A stretch of DNA of 35,126 nt from a virus. The stretch spans positions 1 to 35,126 of the IMG/VR virus record IMGVR_UViG_3300032236_000198. One strand, written 5' to 3'. Position numbers and translations under genes: made by a program. The notes under the pieces are model-generated. The model worked only from the letters and a program-made list of their open reading frames with translations. It was not told where the DNA came from and ran no database searches. Shown here piece by piece: positions 3,942 through 34,259 of this stretch. Position 1 is the first letter of the stretch. Each line of letters opens with the position of its first letter.

Positions 3942-6866
3942 ATGGACATGCTGGATTTCCTCGGGCGCGTTCTGCCCGCTCAAGGCCGTAGGTGTGCTGG
4001 CGTACTTCAAGCTAAGAAATTTCGCAACGTCTTCTTCTCTACGAATGAGGAGTTGGTGGCGTTCAGTAGGCGCGTAGACGCCAAGGGCGTCGATGTTTAT
4101 TTCGGATGCGCCACCTATGGACAAGCTAACAACAGGACACAAGATAACGTAGTGTTCGCGCGGTCCTTCTGGTGCGACTTGGATTGCGGCCCAGGAAAAG
4201 GTTACGCTACGCAGGCTGCTGCTGTTAAAGCAGTCGTGGCATTTTGCAAGGCGGTCGGCCTGCCTACGCCGATGATCGTGTCATCTGGCAAGGGTATCCA
4301 TATCTACTTTTGCACTCCGGAAGATATAACCCCCGCGAACTGGACACAGACCGCCGAACTCTTGAAGCGCGCCACTAAGAAGTTCAAACTTCAAGTGGAC
4401 TATTCTCGATCGACCGATCGAGCAAGCGTCCTCCGGTGCATAGAGACACGGAACCACAAAGACCCGAGCAACCCCCTGCCGGTCAAGCTACTCCACAAAG
4501 GCCAGATCACCACACACCCAGAGTTCCACCTGCAGCTCACCAAGTACGTTGGCGAGGCCGACGACCTTGGCATCGAAGGTGCTGTCGATCCAAGACTGGC
4601 AGGAGATAACGCAGACCTCGCATCACCACGACGGGAGTTCAAGCCATCGGACGCAAACGCAATCGCAGATCGCTGCGCCGCAATCGGCGCGATGCGAGAC
4701 ACGGGCGGCAATATCGCGGAGCCACACTGGTACGCGGCGATCGGAGTCCTGGCACGGACGAAGCAGGGCGGCATCATCTGCCACGAGTGGAGCAAGGGCC
4801 ACCCGAACTACAGCCGCCTGGAGACACAGACGAGGATCGAGCGTTCGCTTGGGCTAAGTGGTCCTACGACCTGTGACAAAATGAGCGACGGCTTCGCAAG
4901 CTGCCAGTCCTGCAAGTACCGCGGCAACATCAAATCCCCGATCGAGTTGGGCGAGGCCGCACCGGCTGCAGTCGTGACTGACCAAGTCACTGTACAAGCG
5001 ACTGCAACGACTCCACCGCCCACGTCGGACATCCCAGACTTCCCCGAGCACTACGGCTGGGGCCTGTACCCTGGCACCAAAGGCAAAGAGGTTCTCTGGG
5101 TCGAGCACTGGGAGGATATCGAGGACGGCGAAGGTGGCACAACCCCGGGCTGGGTTAAGAGCACGTTGCTCCCATATAAACTATGGCCCATCGCTCGCGT
5201 CGAGACGTCGGCCAAAGTCTATTCGATGAACATGTACATGGAGAAGGAGCGCGGTGACGTGACTGAGTTTGCACTGGACTCGAGCGTGGTCGCGGAGGGC
5301 GGCTCGAAGCTGTTCTCAGAACTGGGATCACGTGAGATGAACCTCAACCAGAAAGACAAGATCGCCATCCAACAGTATCTTAACGCATGGGTCGGACACC
5401 TGCGCCAGACCTACGCTGCCACACCGAGCATCACTCAGTACGGCTGGCACAACGGTGGTTTCATCGTCGGACGTGACAACCTCCACGGAACTGGTATCGG
5501 CAAGGCTGTACTCCGTGAGGCTGCTGCAGACTACGCAGAGTTCTTCGAACCGAGTGGAGACCTCGACACCTGGGTGGACGCCGTCGACAAGGCGTACAAC
5601 CACCCCGGCCTTGAAGCGCTTCAGTTCTGTGTGCTGGGCTCGTTCGCTGCTCCGCTGTGGTCGCTGCTCATGGGGTCCGCTGGTGGTGTCATCGTCTACG
5701 CGCATTCCAAAGACACGGGCCTCGGCAAGACGACTGCGCAGAAGGTAGGTTTGTCTGCGTGGGGCAACCCTGCGAACCTCGTGCGCCAGGAAGGTGGCTT
5801 TACGATCAACGCGCTATATGGTCACATAGGCGTCATGCAAAACCTGCCGGTGGTGATCGACGAGTTCACCAACTCCAAGACTGATTTCGCCAGCCAGCTC
5901 GTCTACTCCGTGTCCGCAGGCCAGGGCAAGGCGCGCATGTCGCAGGACGCCAAGCTGCAGAAAACAGCTAACTGGAGCACGATTGTTTTGGCGTCTGGGA
6001 ACAATCTGATCACGGAGAAGTTGTCAGTCCATCGTGCTGATGCGTCTGCAGAAATGTCCCGCGTGTGGGAGTTCACAGTCGCCTGCAAGTCGCCACTCGA
6101 CAAGCGTCTGGCGAAGCCGTTGTTCCGCAAGTTCGACGAGAACTATGGGCACGCCGGTCGCGCGTACATGGAGTATGTAGTTGCAAACAAAGATAAAATC
6201 CGGAAGATGCTGGCGGCAGTTCAGGACCGGTTCGACGTCGACCATGACATCACTCAAGGCGAGCGTTACTGGTCTGCGTTGCACGCTTGCGTGTTGACAT
6301 CACTGGCGATTTGCAGGAAGCTCGGGCTTGTCCAATTCGACCAAGCAGCTATGAAGTCATGGATAAAAAAACAACTACAAACTAACAGGTGGCAGATCAG
6401 CAGTAACGTGCCCACGATGCTCGACCAGTTCGCTAACATGCTACTCGACCTTGGCCCTGGCATCCTAACCACGATCGGTGACGGCCAGAACAACGGCCCC
6501 ATCCGAGTGGAGCGTCCCATCGTCGGACCAGTTACAGGGCGCATAATCCTTGCGGACCCCGGCAACACGGCAGTCCGAGAGGTGATCTATATCGCGAGTG
6601 ACGCCGCCAAGAAGTGGTGCGTGAAACATTCAGTAGCCTACGAGGACATGCGTCGCGAACTCGTGGCGAACCAGATCGTAAAGGACAAGACAGTCCAAGT
6701 TTGCCTAGGAAAGGGAACGTCGGGATACGCGGGCAACCGTGCAAGGAGTTTGGAGATTAGCCCCAGTGCAATGCGTGACGTGTTCGGGGACACACCTTTA
6801 GCCGACAAGATTACAGCATTGACAAGTGGGGATGATAATGGCCGACAACAAGCAGTTAAAAGATGA
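3942..6866 (+). CDS. Primase-helicase: AEP primase fused to DUF927-like ATPase
   Basis: A 974-aa fusion that should prime DNA synthesis and unwind the fork. Residues 1 to about 205 form an archaeo-eukaryotic primase domain: metal ligands in FWCDLDCG (D79, D81), the SSGKGIHIYF motif with H120, and D153/D159 before RASVLRC. Residues about 238-335 look like a PriCT-type C-terminal primase domain with C245, C311, C321 and C324 as a possible zinc knuckle. After a Thr/Pro linker (about 340-365), residues 370-970 carry a DUF927-like helicase with Walker A DTGLGKTT (K586) and Walker B VVIDEF (D630, E631). Starts at 3942 and 3948 are both possible; the ribosome site is weak. It is the last large gene of the + block and overlaps the following small gene. 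Confidence 0.9.
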   Translation: MDMLDFLGRVLPAQGRRCAGVLQAKKFRNVFFSTNEELVAFSRRVDAKGVDVYFGCATYGQANNRTQDNVVFARSFWCDLDCGPGKGYATQAAAVKAVVAFCKAVGLPTPMIVSSGKGIHIYFCTPEDITPANWTQTAELLKRATKKFKLQVDYSRSTDRASVLRCIETRNHKDPSNPLPVKLLHKGQITTHPEFHLQLTKYVGEADDLGIEGAVDPRLAGDNADLASPRREFKPSDANAIADRCAAIGAMRDTGGNIAEPHWYAAIGVLARTKQGGIICHEWSKGHPNYSRLETQTRIERSLGLSGPTTCDKMSDGFASCQSCKYRGNIKSPIELGEAAPAAVVTDQVTVQATATTPPPTSDIPDFPEHYGWGLYPGTKGKEVLWVEHWEDIEDGEGGTTPGWVKSTLLPYKLWPIARVETSAKVYSMNMYMEKERGDVTEFALDSSVVAEGGSKLFSELGSREMNLNQKDKIAIQQYLNAWVGHLRQTYAATPSITQYGWHNGGFIVGRDNLHGTGIGKAVLREAAADYAEFFEPSGDLDTWVDAVDKAYNHPGLEALQFCVLGSFAAPLWSLLMGSAGGVIVYAHSKDTGLGKTTAQKVGLSAWGNPANLVRQEGGFTINALYGHIGVMQNLPVVIDEFTNSKTDFASQLVYSVSAGQGKARMSQDAKLQKTANWSTIVLASGNNLITEKLSVHRADASAEMSRVWEFTVACKSPLDKRLAKPLFRKFDENYGHAGRAYMEYVVANKDKIRKMLAAVQDRFDVDHDITQGERYWSALHACVLTSLAICRKLGLVQFDQAAMKSWIKKQLQTNRWQISSNVPTMLDQFANMLLDLGPGILTTIGDGQNNGPIRVERPIVGPVTGRIILADPGNTAVREVIYIASDAAKKWCVKHSVAYEDMRRELVANQIVKDKTVQVCLGKGTSGYAGNRARSLEISPSAMRDVFGDTPLADKITALTSGDDNGRQQAVKR

Positions 6867-15955: not shown

Positions 15956-16795
15956 CTAACCAATTCCTGGAATGCCATACTTGCCTATTGCTGCGCCACC
16001 GAGCGTACCGAACAGCTTGCCCAGCCCTGTCCCAAGGCTCGTCGACGCGTCTGCCGCGATGTTGGCCGAGCCGAGCTTGGCCCACGCGTCCACGTTGTTG
16101 TTGTAGCCGGACAGCGCCGTGTTGTAGCCCGCCATAGGCACAGACGCCGCACTGTTCGTGCCACTCAGCGCAGAGTTCGCAACACCAAACGCGCCGTTCG
16201 TTGCGGCTCCAGCTGCGCTTCCGAAGTTCGTGATATTCTGTGCGCCGGTATTGCCGAAGCCTGCGGCCTGGGCGCTCACGTTCATGCCCATCTGCCGGGC
16301 AGTGTTCCTGGCTCGGTTCATCGCGCCAGTCTGGTTAGCCGCGTTCTGAACTGCCGCGGACTGACTGGCCTCGATCGCCGCGGGCGAGTTTGCTTGAATA
16401 CCAAGGCTCGCCATCTGACGGTTACGGGCTGCGTTCTGTGCCGCGATCGCTTGCTCTGAGTCGGACTGGGCCTCGCCAGCTTCGCGCTCCATCTCTTGAG
16501 GGCTCGAGAATTGCGCCGCCTGCTGGTAGAACCTGTTCTGCGCGGGGAGCGCATACTTCTGGTACTGCTCGGCTTGCGCCTGCAGCTGCGGCAGCTCGGT
16601 TTGGAATATAGTATTCTGGTTGCCCTCAGCCCGCGCCGCCATCTGGTTCTGCTGCTGCAGCATCGGGGTGATGACGTTAGTATAATAGTTCTGCGACCAG
16701 TTCTGCGCAGCCGCCGCCGTATCGGCGGACTTCGTCATGGCTGCGCCGATCTGAGGATCGTAGTCGCTTTTCACACCCTTTGATCCACTACCCAT
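15956..16795 (-). CDS. Internal virion (DNA-ejection) protein
   Basis: A 279-aa protein rich in Ala, Gln, Asn and Gly. Its N-terminal two thirds (about 20-190) is helical with many Gln and Ala residues (for instance MLQQQNQMAARAEGNQN); the C-terminal third is Gly/Ala-rich and ends in a hydrophobic LGKLFGTLGGAAIGKYG stretch. This is the look of the small internal core or ejection proteins of podophages (T7 gp14, P22 gp7 type), which leave the capsid with the DNA and build a channel in the cell envelope. It overlaps the preceding acetyltransferase gene by eight bases and is followed by the two larger internal proteins, the usual small-to-large order. Direct homology to gp14 is not claimed. Confidence 0.75.
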   Translation of the reverse strand: MGSGSKGVKSDYDPQIGAAMTKSADTAAAAQNWSQNYYTNVITPMLQQQNQMAARAEGNQNTIFQTELPQLQAQAEQYQKYALPAQNRFYQQAAQFSSPQEMEREAGEAQSDSEQAIAAQNAARNRQMASLGIQANSPAAIEASQSAAVQNAANQTGAMNRARNTARQMGMNVSAQAAGFGNTGAQNITNFGSAAGAATNGAFGVANSALSGTNSAASVPMAGYNTALSGYNNNVDAWAKLGSANIAADASTSLGTGLGKLFGTLGGAAIGKYGIPGIG

Positions 16796-17231
16796 TTTTC
16801 AGCCCCAGCCATCGGTTAGCATCTTCACGAAACATAGCATACAACCTAACATCCTGACCACTACTACCTGCGCCTTTAAGTGTCGCCTCATGCCTGAAGC
16901 CAACATGGGTATCGAACCGTATCGCTGCCAGATTATCTTCCTCGACCCATCCCGTAAGCCGGTCTAGCCCCAACTGCAGAAACGGAAACGCAAAGGTCTG
17001 GTAGAGCAAGTCCCGTGTGACCCAGCGTACTCCTGGCCTCGCTGCAACGTGTAGGAACGCGTTATGCTTATTGGCGCTCTGATATACTATGGCTGCAACA
17101 ATCTCGCCATCCAATTTCTGAACGATCGACTTCGTCCAAGGGCACCACCAAACAGGTGTATATTGGTACAAAAAAGCATACCCTTCGTCGTCCGCCCGCT
17201 CCACCGAATACCGTGACATGCGCTCACTCAT
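16788..17231 (-). CDS. GNAT-family N-acetyltransferase
   Basis: A 147-aa protein with the GNAT fold pattern: a strand LDGEIVAAIVYQ near 40-51, a helix after ARPGVRWVTRDLL, then LTGWVEEDNLAAIRF and THVGFRHEATL, where acetyl-CoA acceptor proteins carry a conserved Asn/Ala-rich helix and a GFR/GF turn. Such enzymes are common in phages just before the internal protein genes; the substrate is unknown, perhaps a virion or host protein. Its ATG overlaps the stop of the 23-aa peptide in ATGAGTGA, and its own end overlaps the next gene by eight bases, so it is translated as part of a coupled chain. Confidence 0.8.
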   Translation of the reverse strand: MSERMSRYSVERADDEGYAFLYQYTPVWWCPWTKSIVQKLDGEIVAAIVYQSANKHNAFLHVAARPGVRWVTRDLLYQTFAFPFLQLGLDRLTGWVEEDNLAAIRFDTHVGFRHEATLKGAGSSGQDVRLYAMFREDANRWLGLKNG

Positions 17232-20016: not shown

Positions 20017-20045
20017 TGTTTACCGTGTTCAGCTAGGTATGTCAA
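20017..20045 (-). promoter_or_regulatory. Sigma70-like promoter candidate before the small basic genes
   Basis: On the - strand TTGACA (20045-20040) is followed by 17 bases and TAAACA (20022-20017). The TGA stop of the upstream TM protein lies inside the TTGACA, so the promoter would start a new transcript exactly at a gene border. The -10 is weak. Confidence 0.4.
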
Positions 20046-20317
20046 AAAGGGAGGTGGAATAATTTGCCCAACCTCTCGGCTCCTAAGAATGTTGCCACAA
20101 AAGTCGCGACGTAGGCGACCACCTTGATCCTCGCGTTGTCCGTCTCGAGCTTACTGAACCGCGACTCGCACGACTTGCACTGCAGGACAGTCGCGGTATT
20201 AGACGCGATCAGCATGTCGATCTTGCCCTCCACGCGACCCAGCGCACGCGATAAGTCTTCATGATGCCTAGACTTCAGCAGGTCCGCGTCACTCGCTTCA
20301 TCCTGTTCGGTTGTCAC
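20042..20317 (-). CDS. Coiled-coil protein with C-terminal membrane helix (XhlA-like, holin candidate)
   Basis: A 91-aa protein with a GTG start and a good AAGGAG ribosome site. Residues 15-60 are charged and coiled-coil-like (LSRALGRVEGKIDML, SRFSKLETDNARI), with a CKSC pair at 47-50. Residues about 65-84 (VVAYVATFVATFLGAERLG) form one membrane span near the C-terminus. Coiled coil plus a C-terminal anchor is the plan of XhlA-type lysis accessory proteins, so it may take part in lysis; it could equally be a tail-associated membrane protein. It starts one base after the stop of the zinc-ribbon gene, so the two are probably coupled. Confidence 0.65.
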   Translation of the reverse strand: MTTEQDEASDADLLKSRHHEDLSRALGRVEGKIDMLIASNTATVLQCKSCESRFSKLETDNARIKVVAYVATFVATFLGAERLGKLFHLPF

Positions 20318-28306: not shown

Positions 28307-28597
28307 TTACGCGACCGGGGCCTTGGGAGCCACGGACGTGTCCAGCGTGCCGACTGCGTCACTCATGGTCGTGAGCGTAGCAGTGATGCTGTCGACGGCG
28401 GCTTGGTTAGCCGTTTCATCGACACCAGCAGCAGCAGCAGCGATTGCCGCGGGGACATCCGTTTCGAGCTTTGCGAGCCCAGCCTGGAGAGCCACGACAA
28501 CTGCCTGGAGCTTCGAGAGATCGAGTTGCATCTGATTTACCTTTCGTTGCAGCGCAGAAAATTTGACCTCGAGTGTTACAATTCGCGGCAGGCTCAT
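28307..28597 (-). CDS. 96-aa coiled-coil protein
   Basis: An N-terminal heptad-patterned helix (VTLEVKFSALQRKVNQMQLD, on to about residue 45) is followed by an Ala-rich region with AIAAAAAGVDETANQAAVDS and a short C-terminal tail. The start overlaps the endolysin stop by four bases (ATGA), so the two are coupled. No function is recognised; a small trimeric structural or lysis-associated protein is possible. Reading-frame quality and the overlap support a real gene. Confidence 0.7.
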   Translation of the reverse strand: MSLPRIVTLEVKFSALQRKVNQMQLDLSKLQAVVVALQAGLAKLETDVPAAIAAAAAGVDETANQAAVDSITATLTTMSDAVGTLDTSVAPKAPVA

Positions 28598-28827
28598 GAG
28601 GCCGACTGAGTTGCCGACGTAGGGGACGCAGGTGCTACCGGAGTAGCATGTACGACAGAGGACTGGATGAGACCGACACCTGTAAAGAGCAGGCCGATGA
28701 AGCCATCCAGCGTCGATGGGTCAAGCCCTGCCTTCACGAAGAGTGCTGTGCCACCGAGCTTAAGCGCGGAGCGCAGGAGCGACTGAACCTGGGCATTCCC
28801 CAGGATCGAAAAGATAATGTTTCCCAT
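28594..28827 (-). CDS. Holin-like protein from an internal start in the endolysin gene
   Basis: Within the endolysin frame, ATG at 28825-28827 (Met208) is preceded by CTGGAGAAGCTAACA, with GGAG nine bases away, a better ribosome site than many real starts in this window. The 77-aa product would contain NIIFSILGNAQVQSLLRSAL, LGGTALFVKAG, LDPSTLDGFIG and LLFTGVGLIQSSV, that is, two hydrophobic spans with a polar turn, resembling small Pam3-gp28-type phage holins. Separate synthesis is an inference from the ribosome site. Confidence 0.45.
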   Translation of the reverse strand: MGNIIFSILGNAQVQSLLRSALKLGGTALFVKAGLDPSTLDGFIGLLFTGVGLIQSSVVHATPVAPASPTSATQSAS

Positions 28828-29448
28828 TGTTAGCTTCTCCAGAGGTTGCCCGAAGTTGATGCTGATGATGAACGGTGCTTCCGGCTTCGGTTCCGGTAGT
28901 CCCGCCAGCTCATGCGACTGCTTCCTGACGCCGACAATGCGTGCGGACCACCCGCCACCGAACGTGGCCCAGAGCGATGCCCCGGTCTCAGGGTTGCGTG
29001 CCCGCTTCATGAACGCCAGCCGGATCGTAAGCATCCGGTCGATGATGTCTCCTGCGGCGAACTTGAACGATGCCTCGATCGTCGCGTCGCCTATCTTCCC
29101 GTCCTCGGGGATGATGATCGTCCCTGCGAGTGAGTTGATGGCCTGCTGGAGCCAGAGCGCGCCACGCTCAATCCCGCTATTTACCCCGGCGTCGAATACG
29201 CAGTTAGCAACACCTGGGTTCAGGTTAGCACATTTCAACGGCGTCCAGTAGTTGACGAGGTAAATTTCCTGCGCCTCGTCGTCAGTAATGAACTTGACCG
29301 ACCGCTCGACGAGCCCCTTGCCCTTGCGGAACCGGTCGTACTCTGTCTGAATGACACCCTTGTTGGTCGCGCCGCCAGGGTCGCGTGGGTCGTTTCCGTA
29401 GCCGCCTTCCCAGGGATACAGGAACGCGAGGGATTGGTCGAACGCCAT
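28594..29448 (-). CDS. GH108-type endolysin with C-terminal holin-like domain
   Basis: A 284-aa muramidase. The N-terminal domain (1 to about 165) has the glycoside hydrolase 108 signature: YPWEGGYGNDPRDPGGATNK, with catalytic E14, followed by GVIQTEYDRFRKGKG and VNYWTPLKCANL, and later GALWLQQAINSL in the peptidoglycan-binding part. It cleaves cell-wall glycan at the end of infection. Residues 208-266 form a hydrophobic double-span region like Pam3-gp28 holins. Soluble GH108 endolysins usually stop near 170-200 aa, so the membrane tail is extra. The start has TTAGGGG ahead. The gene stands unusually between the tailspike and portal genes. Confidence 0.85.
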   Translation of the reverse strand: MAFDQSLAFLYPWEGGYGNDPRDPGGATNKGVIQTEYDRFRKGKGLVERSVKFITDDEAQEIYLVNYWTPLKCANLNPGVANCVFDAGVNSGIERGALWLQQAINSLAGTIIIPEDGKIGDATIEASFKFAAGDIIDRMLTIRLAFMKRARNPETGASLWATFGGGWSARIVGVRKQSHELAGLPEPKPEAPFIISINFGQPLEKLTMGNIIFSILGNAQVQSLLRSALKLGGTALFVKAGLDPSTLDGFIGLLFTGVGLIQSSVVHATPVAPASPTSATQSAS

Positions 29449-29500
29449 GTCAGCCCCTAACTGTTAGCGTATGTGGGTGTGACGTTAGCATATGCTTTCC

Positions 29501-33808: not shown

Positions 33809-33825
33809 GTTAGGTGTCCTAAGTG

Positions 33826-34194
33826 TTAGCTCACCGAGCCGCCAGTGACAAGCTCACCAACCCAAGTCGTGCCACCGTCAACCGTAATGAACCGGAGCAT
33901 GTAGATCACGCTTGCCGTGGTGTCGATCGTCGGCGCAGTTGCCGCCTTCCACTTCACACCCGTGGGGAGCGTCACGGCGTAGCCGGTCGCGCCCTGCCTG
34001 ATCCAAGCCTCGATAACTTCGCGGTAGCCCTTCTGGACGGACCCCGCTGCAGGCAGCGAGAGCGTCAGGGACGCACTGGTCGTCAAGTCGTAAACCATAT
34101 ACCCGCCAGCGTTCAGCTGGTAGGTTGCGCCTGCCGTTCCTTTGATAACCCCAGGAGCGCTATCAGCGGGGTTAGACTGCGACACGTTAACCAT
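33826..34194 (-). CDS. Small fibre/virion-associated structural protein
   Basis: A 122-aa beta-rich protein: TAGATYQLNAGGYMVYDLTT, LTLSLPAAGSVQKGYREVIE, then TGYAVTLPTGVKWKAATAP. The pattern of short strands with Gly/Thr turns is that of small phage tail or capsid decoration proteins. It sits between TerL and the tailspike, and its start has a very good GGGAGGGG ribosome site. It may be an accessory to the spike; no defined family is recognised. Confidence 0.75.
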   Translation of the reverse strand: MVNVSQSNPADSAPGVIKGTAGATYQLNAGGYMVYDLTTSASLTLSLPAAGSVQKGYREVIEAWIRQGATGYAVTLPTGVKWKAATAPTIDTTASVIYMLRFITVDGGTTWVGELVTGGSVS

Positions 34195-34220: not shown

Positions 34221-34259
34221 GACACGTTAGTATGTACCGTTAGTATGTTAGCGTGTCAA
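34221..34259 (-). promoter_or_regulatory. Promoter/operator-like cluster downstream of TerL
   Basis: On the - strand TTGACA (34259-34254), 17 bases, then TACATA (34236-34231) 37 bases before the next start codon. Inside it CGTTAGTATGT is repeated exactly (34225-34235 and 34238-34248, period 13), flanked by inverted GACACG (34221-34226) and CGTGTC (34252-34257). The repeats overlap the -10 region, the place for a repressor or activator. Confidence 0.55.

Follow-up and report, generated by a model that had tools for sequence, protein, structure and literature searches.

A muramidase gene that runs into a holin-like tail

The DNA analysed here (the window) is a 35,126-nt stretch of viral sequence, IMG/VR record IMGVR_UViG_3300032236_000198. 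On its minus strand, at positions 28594-29448, lies a gene of 284 codons with an ATG start, which an initial annotation had read as an endolysin whose GH108 muramidase continues into a tail. Both points were borne out, the PF05838 (GH108) match and the tail lying in the same frame. The N-acetylmuramidase domain (residues 1-182; 28903-29448), defined by PF05838 and by a fold match, is joined through a linker (residues 183-207; 28828-28902), rich in proline and glutamate at its start and predicted to be mostly coil, to a tail of 77 amino acids (residues 208-284; 28597-28827). The tail is predicted to form helices at residues 210-216, 219-240 and 244-268, ends in a region rich in proline, serine and threonine, and contains a core resembling the Pam3 gp28 holins (PF23987) at about residues 218-262 (28663-28797). 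Upstream of the gene, a leader (29449-29500, minus strand) holds two copies of the hexamer GCTAAC 21 bases apart and a weak Shine-Dalgarno (SD) sequence (-5.6 kcal/mol). Downstream, the stop codon of the lysin overlaps, as ATGA, the ATG of a minus-strand ORF for a 96-aa coiled-coil protein (28307-28597), which is also present, at 47% identity, in a related 59.5-kb contig, L001.

The enzyme part is a clear member of its family. Its PF05838 match, at residues 9-92, scored 90.3 bits against a Pfam family cut-off of 21.2, and the catalytic glutamate of the EGG (Glu-Gly-Gly) motif is E14, which all 47 homologues compared share. The AlphaFold model, confident to residue 182, resembles GH108 enzymes of known structure, most closely Brucella SagA (7dnp; TM 0.84 on the target), a likeness also found by sequence. 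Among the best 80 GH108 relatives in IMG/VR (L016-L095), about half have a hydrophobic C-terminal tail, usually with one strong helix; predicted tail-anchored muramidases are widespread.

The tail resembles Pam3-gp28-type holins

PF23987, the Pam3 gp28 holins of Pfam (Phage_holin_10; curated cut-off 27 bits), was the single Pfam family found in the tail. It scored 18.1 bits with the whole protein, 20.4 bits when the 77 amino acids were searched alone, as the initial annotation had suggested, and 21.3 bits with the first 60 of these, all below the cut-off. The likeness to Pam3 gp28 noted at the outset was nevertheless supported by two controls. When the tail was shuffled with its pattern of hydrophobic, small and polar residues preserved, 1 of 60 shuffles matched PF23987 and none of the 60 scored as high as the real tail. 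In addition, standalone PF23987 members were gathered from IMG/VR, and a profile built from 18 distinct ones gave the tail 12.2 bits (7e-6 as the E-value of a single comparison). As high a score came from 1 plain shuffle in 10,000 and from 115 pattern-preserving shuffles in 10,000, and the profile gave no other GH108 tail more than 11.2 bits. An HMM made from three standalone holins was discarded as a discriminator, because it separated the tail poorly (127 of 4,960 shuffles scored as high) and the 18-sequence profile separated it better.

Comparison of the tail with three standalone members by hhalign gave E = 2e-4 and a probability of 46%, and the alignment runs ungapped over 45 residues, with R226, L229, G233, K239, G252, G259 and S263 in common. 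The PF23987 match of the tail covers both helices (profile positions 1-43). Other GH108 lysins with a single-helix tail score up to 19.6 bits, over only about 20 model positions. The tail lacks the C-terminal basic cluster (KK or KR after helix 2) found in nearly all standalone members, ending in ATPVAPASPTSATQSAS, and it lacks the conserved tryptophan that precedes their serine. By these comparisons the likeness to the holin family is beyond chance and is not accounted for by composition and hydrophobic pattern; common ancestry of the tail and the Pam3-gp28-type holins is likely, though not certain.

Several further candidates were rejected. PF23987 matches occurred in 7 of 47 GH108 lysins and were considered as extra holin fusions; there are five such lysins besides those of the window and L001, and the four identified have short matches, to one helix or its end. 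A bacterial genome with a weak PF23987 match (L097) appears to encode an unrelated membrane protein. L031, whose GH108 lysin (2001-2759) carries two strong C-terminal helices, has no PF23987 match and was not retained as a second holin fusion; it is possibly an independent double-span lysin.

The tail had also been described as a double-span hydrophobic segment, wording that proved too strong. An AlphaFold model of the 77 amino acids does predict a helical hairpin (helices 219-240 and 244-268), with low to moderate confidence, but only the second helix nears the hydropathy threshold for a transmembrane segment, and helix 248-266 is a borderline case. The highest Kyte-Doolittle mean that the tail attains over 19 residues is 1.59 (residues 250-268), compared with about 2.05 for helix 2 of the standalone members. 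The first helix reaches only about 1.1, contains R226, K230 and K239, and is amphipathic; it is unconvincing as a lone membrane span, which is also true, less strongly, of the standalone family.

A candidate internal start at the domain junction

The presence of GGAG nine bases before Met208, also claimed at the outset, was confirmed: the ATG of M208 occupies 28827-28825 on the minus strand, with CTGGAGAAGCTAACA directly upstream and GGAG at 28837-28840 as a candidate internal ribosome binding site. Between the two, one base before the ATG, lies a copy of GCTAAC (28829-28834), the window's commonest intergenic hexamer. L001 has GTG in place of this ATG and GGAG at the identical nine-base spacing, retaining CTGGAGAA.CTAAC followed by GTG. 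The duplex of GGAG with the 16S tail has a predicted energy of -6.4 kcal/mol in both genomes, compared with -5.6 at the gene's own start, and is the strongest among the five internal in-frame starts of the fused gene. Codons 201-206 are identical between the window and L001 in five of six cases, against a background codon identity of about 0.41 across the gene, and the site is among the least structured of each gene (18 of 265 sites are less structured in the window gene, 15 of 263 in L001).

The case for an internal start thus stood in part, the candidate ribosome binding site being kept in L001 along with a start codon (GTG) and the site being the best of five, and was weakened by codon-level controls. 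Across the window's genes, 40 of 512 internal in-frame starts (7.8%) match or exceed this one in the strength of their SD duplex. Synonymous resampling gave an SD as strong in about 31-32% of trials, and an SD together with low structure in 6.6% for the window and 5.8% for L001 (p of about 0.06 in each genome), so that these signals are almost accounted for by codon usage and the residues encoded, and the internal start, by itself, is not beyond chance. The combination of SD and codon conservation was accordingly rejected as proof and kept as suggestive. A further 35 GH108 lysins with TM tails showed no excess of SD-preceded starts at the junction (0.0058 vs 0.0083 per codon), and internal starts as a general trait of membrane-tailed GH108 lysins were rejected on this ground. 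The GCTAAC copy before ATG208 is one of only two among 22 intragenic copies that lie out of the Ala-Asn frame; this argument was framed after the site had been seen. A free 77-aa second product starting at M208 is plausible, and the signals for it are suggestive.

Conservation and genomic context

L001 keeps the same fusion, at 71% identity overall, and conservation is uneven along the protein: dN between the two genomes is 0.07-0.08 in the tail core and 0.29 in the enzyme, which makes the tail about fourfold more conserved than the enzyme; synonymous sites are nearly saturated. Relatives of this exact tail were absent from 50,697 phage records searched by tblastn, and scans of IMG/VR returned only L001. 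Two sister phages, L099 and L100, were found through their portal proteins (76% and 72% identity). Their GH108 genes at the matching place (L099 2581-3150; L100 3794-4477) are only 36-38% identical, one being tailless and the other having a different short tail; in the available data the fused gene is therefore confined to the window and L001, and the lysis gene at this site looks like a swapped module.

Standalone members of the holin family occur next to lysis enzymes. In L096 and L101, the holin directly follows a GH24 lysozyme and precedes a small single-TM ORF resembling an i-spanin, and in L110 it lies downstream of a 306-aa ORF whose N-terminus resembles a peptidoglycan-binding lysin. 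Since some standalone holins are encoded directly downstream of endolysins, a fusion in this order needs only the loss of a stop codon.

PF23987 matches nothing but the tail in the window protein and in L001, whose 59.5-kb contig yielded no second domain of this family, and the window yielded no further clear holin. Two small ORFs were considered in this regard. In L001 an ORF at 4795-5004, which follows the tail fibre and directly precedes the fused lysin, encodes a 69-aa protein with one N-terminal membrane helix, a candidate pinholin or i-spanin that is absent from the window. The window encodes at 20042-20317, on the minus strand and with a good SD, a 91-aa protein whose start is polar and coiled-coil-like and whose C-terminal part has a hydrophobic stretch, possibly a separate holin or an XhlA-like protein, for which no counterpart was found in L001. 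The window being an IMG/VR fragment, part of a genome, a separate holin is possible but not evident.

A proposed mode of action and its alternatives

Taken at the level of sequence, this gene shows a natural fusion of an endolysin to a holin-like domain, with a GH108 fold and selection on the tail; the fusion is supported by the Pfam match, the 18-member profile, the shuffle controls, the predicted hairpin and the conserved relative. That the tail descends from a holin of the Pam3-gp28 type has good support, if not certainty. The gene is probably a phage lysis gene in which a GH108 muramidase is joined to a small membrane domain with two helices, of Pam3-gp28 type, and the following working is proposed. 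The full-length protein would be made in the cytoplasm, and its tail would associate with the inner membrane. With accumulation, the tail helices would insert and cluster, opening or weakening the membrane, and the attached enzyme would thereby be brought to the peptidoglycan through the lesion, perhaps assisted by free tail protein made from M208. We infer membrane insertion, lesion formation and enzyme release. Points against this explanation are the sub-threshold Pfam score, the scores that single-helix GH108 tails attain, the lower hydrophobicity of the tail, its missing basic cluster and tryptophan, and the two small ORFs noted above, either of which could encode a holin.

That the gene yields two products, a 284-aa membrane-bound muramidase and a free 77-aa holin-like protein whose mixed oligomers set the timing of lysis, is a tentative possibility, which adds to this best explanation and does not exclude it. 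It gains from an SD at M208 that exceeds that of the gene's own start, from the retention of this site and of the codons before it in L001, from the low structure of the site in both genomes, and from the position there of a hexamer typical of the phage's intergenic leaders; it loses from the resampling frequencies, from the absence of enrichment in the 35 other tailed lysins and from the post hoc nature of the CTAAC argument.

The tail might instead be a plain C-terminal anchor, with the enzyme held by a single helix (about 248-266) and a likeness to holins that arose by convergence. Hydrophobic tails are common among the best GH108 relatives, mostly as one strong helix, and occur in isolates (Agrobacterium phages 7-7-1 and Milano); lysis by M4Lys (PMC7143992) and LysAP (PMC8879335) likewise depends on a C-terminal TMD. 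We nevertheless consider this reading unlikely, as the window helix is weaker than such anchors (1.59 vs above 2) and has no basic stop-transfer end, and its PF23987 match spans both helices while true anchors match briefly. It is more improbable still that the tail is a helical targeting or oligomerisation module outside the membrane, with an unrelated holin releasing the lysin. The low hydrophobicity, the amphipathic first helix and the C-terminus rich in proline, serine and threonine would fit such a module, and the holin could be one of the small candidate membrane ORFs (69 aa in L001, 91 aa in the window) or be encoded beyond the stretch analysed. Against it stand the similarity of the tail to a holin family and the fact that neither candidate ORF is shared between the window and L001, whereas the tail is.

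Relation to known lysis systems

Phages usually encode holin and endolysin in separate genes, which lets timing and cutting be tuned apart. The order of enzyme and holin in the window gene poses the question of how timing survives if every enzyme bears a membrane domain; an internal start, if true, would be a compact answer. That one in-frame gene of a Gram-negative phage forms a complete enzyme and holin unit, with a membrane-bound muramidase and a free 77-aa holin-like protein from an ATG or GTG internal start that co-assemble and time lysis, is doubtful on present signals.

The window tail shares with the Pam3 gp28 holins a predicted two-helix domain and the spacing of R, L, G, K, G, G and S over 45 residues, and those holins are encoded beside endolysins in L096 and L101; it differs from them in being attached C-terminally to a GH108 enzyme, in scoring below the family cut-off, in having no basic cluster and in being less hydrophobic. 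A natural gene fusion that places holin and endolysin in one polypeptide is described in the available part of a report on Clostridium sporogenes, where a TpeE-type holin stands ahead of the endolysin and is argued to carry it across (PMC9527704). There the holin comes first, belongs to another family and acts in a Gram-positive host, and that part of the report proposes no internal start (PMC9527704).

Enzymes that precede a C-terminal membrane segment, as in the window gene, are LysAP of Acidovorax phage AP1, a GH24 enzyme whose TMD is needed for lysis when expressed and which has a separate holin (PMC8879335), and M4Lys of phage BSPM4, which lyses without holin or Sec and for which the TMD is indispensable (PMC7143992); both have a single helix, not the holin-type hairpin predicted for the window tail. 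The endolysins of Agrobacterium phages 7-7-1 and Milano likewise combine GH108 with a C-terminal membrane segment, but with one strong helix, a basic end and no PF23987 likeness over both helices. In Milano, i-spanin and o-spanin genes follow the GH108 endolysin.

Two polypeptides made from one endolysin gene are known for CTP1L (PMC4777826) and LysIME-EF1 (PMC7098653) and have been surveyed (PMC9430671). An in-frame internal start, as proposed for our candidate, gives the C-terminal product; in these Gram-positive phages, where such starts are established (PMC9430671), that product is a cell-wall-binding domain, whereas the putative product of the window gene is holin-like. The survey covers Gram-positive phages only and deems internal starts unlikely in Gram-negative ones (PMC9430671), a view for which the fused gene offers a concrete test candidate.

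A search of open-access papers, with most subscription papers outside its scope, returned no published holin-family hairpin C-terminal to a GH108 domain. Within that literature, the initial annotation's remark that no exactly matching case was known holds for this order and family. A natural fusion of holin and endolysin (PMC9527704), endolysins with C-terminal membrane domains (PMC8879335, PMC7143992) and two-polypeptide endolysins (PMC9430671) are, however, already in print. What is new is the holin-family hairpin at the C-terminus of a GH108 lysin, together with the possible internal start; a C-terminal membrane segment as such is common among GH108 lysins and annotated in isolates.

Other features of the window

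Of the 34 copies of GCTAAC, the commonest intergenic hexamer, 12 fall within 1,291 bases of intergenic sequence; all of these read in the coding direction, with none antisense. The hexamer may have a regulatory role or mark leaders; no Rfam elements were found in the window. The copies are often paired and sometimes near TTGACA (for example 29463-29468, 29484-29489, 33825-33830, 34247-34252 and 1494-1499), and the hexamer is frequent between L001 genes too. Among the virion genes, the minus strand at 16788-17231 encodes a GNAT-like acyltransferase (PHROG 4470, acyl-CoA N-acyltransferase), and a similar ORF is present in L001.
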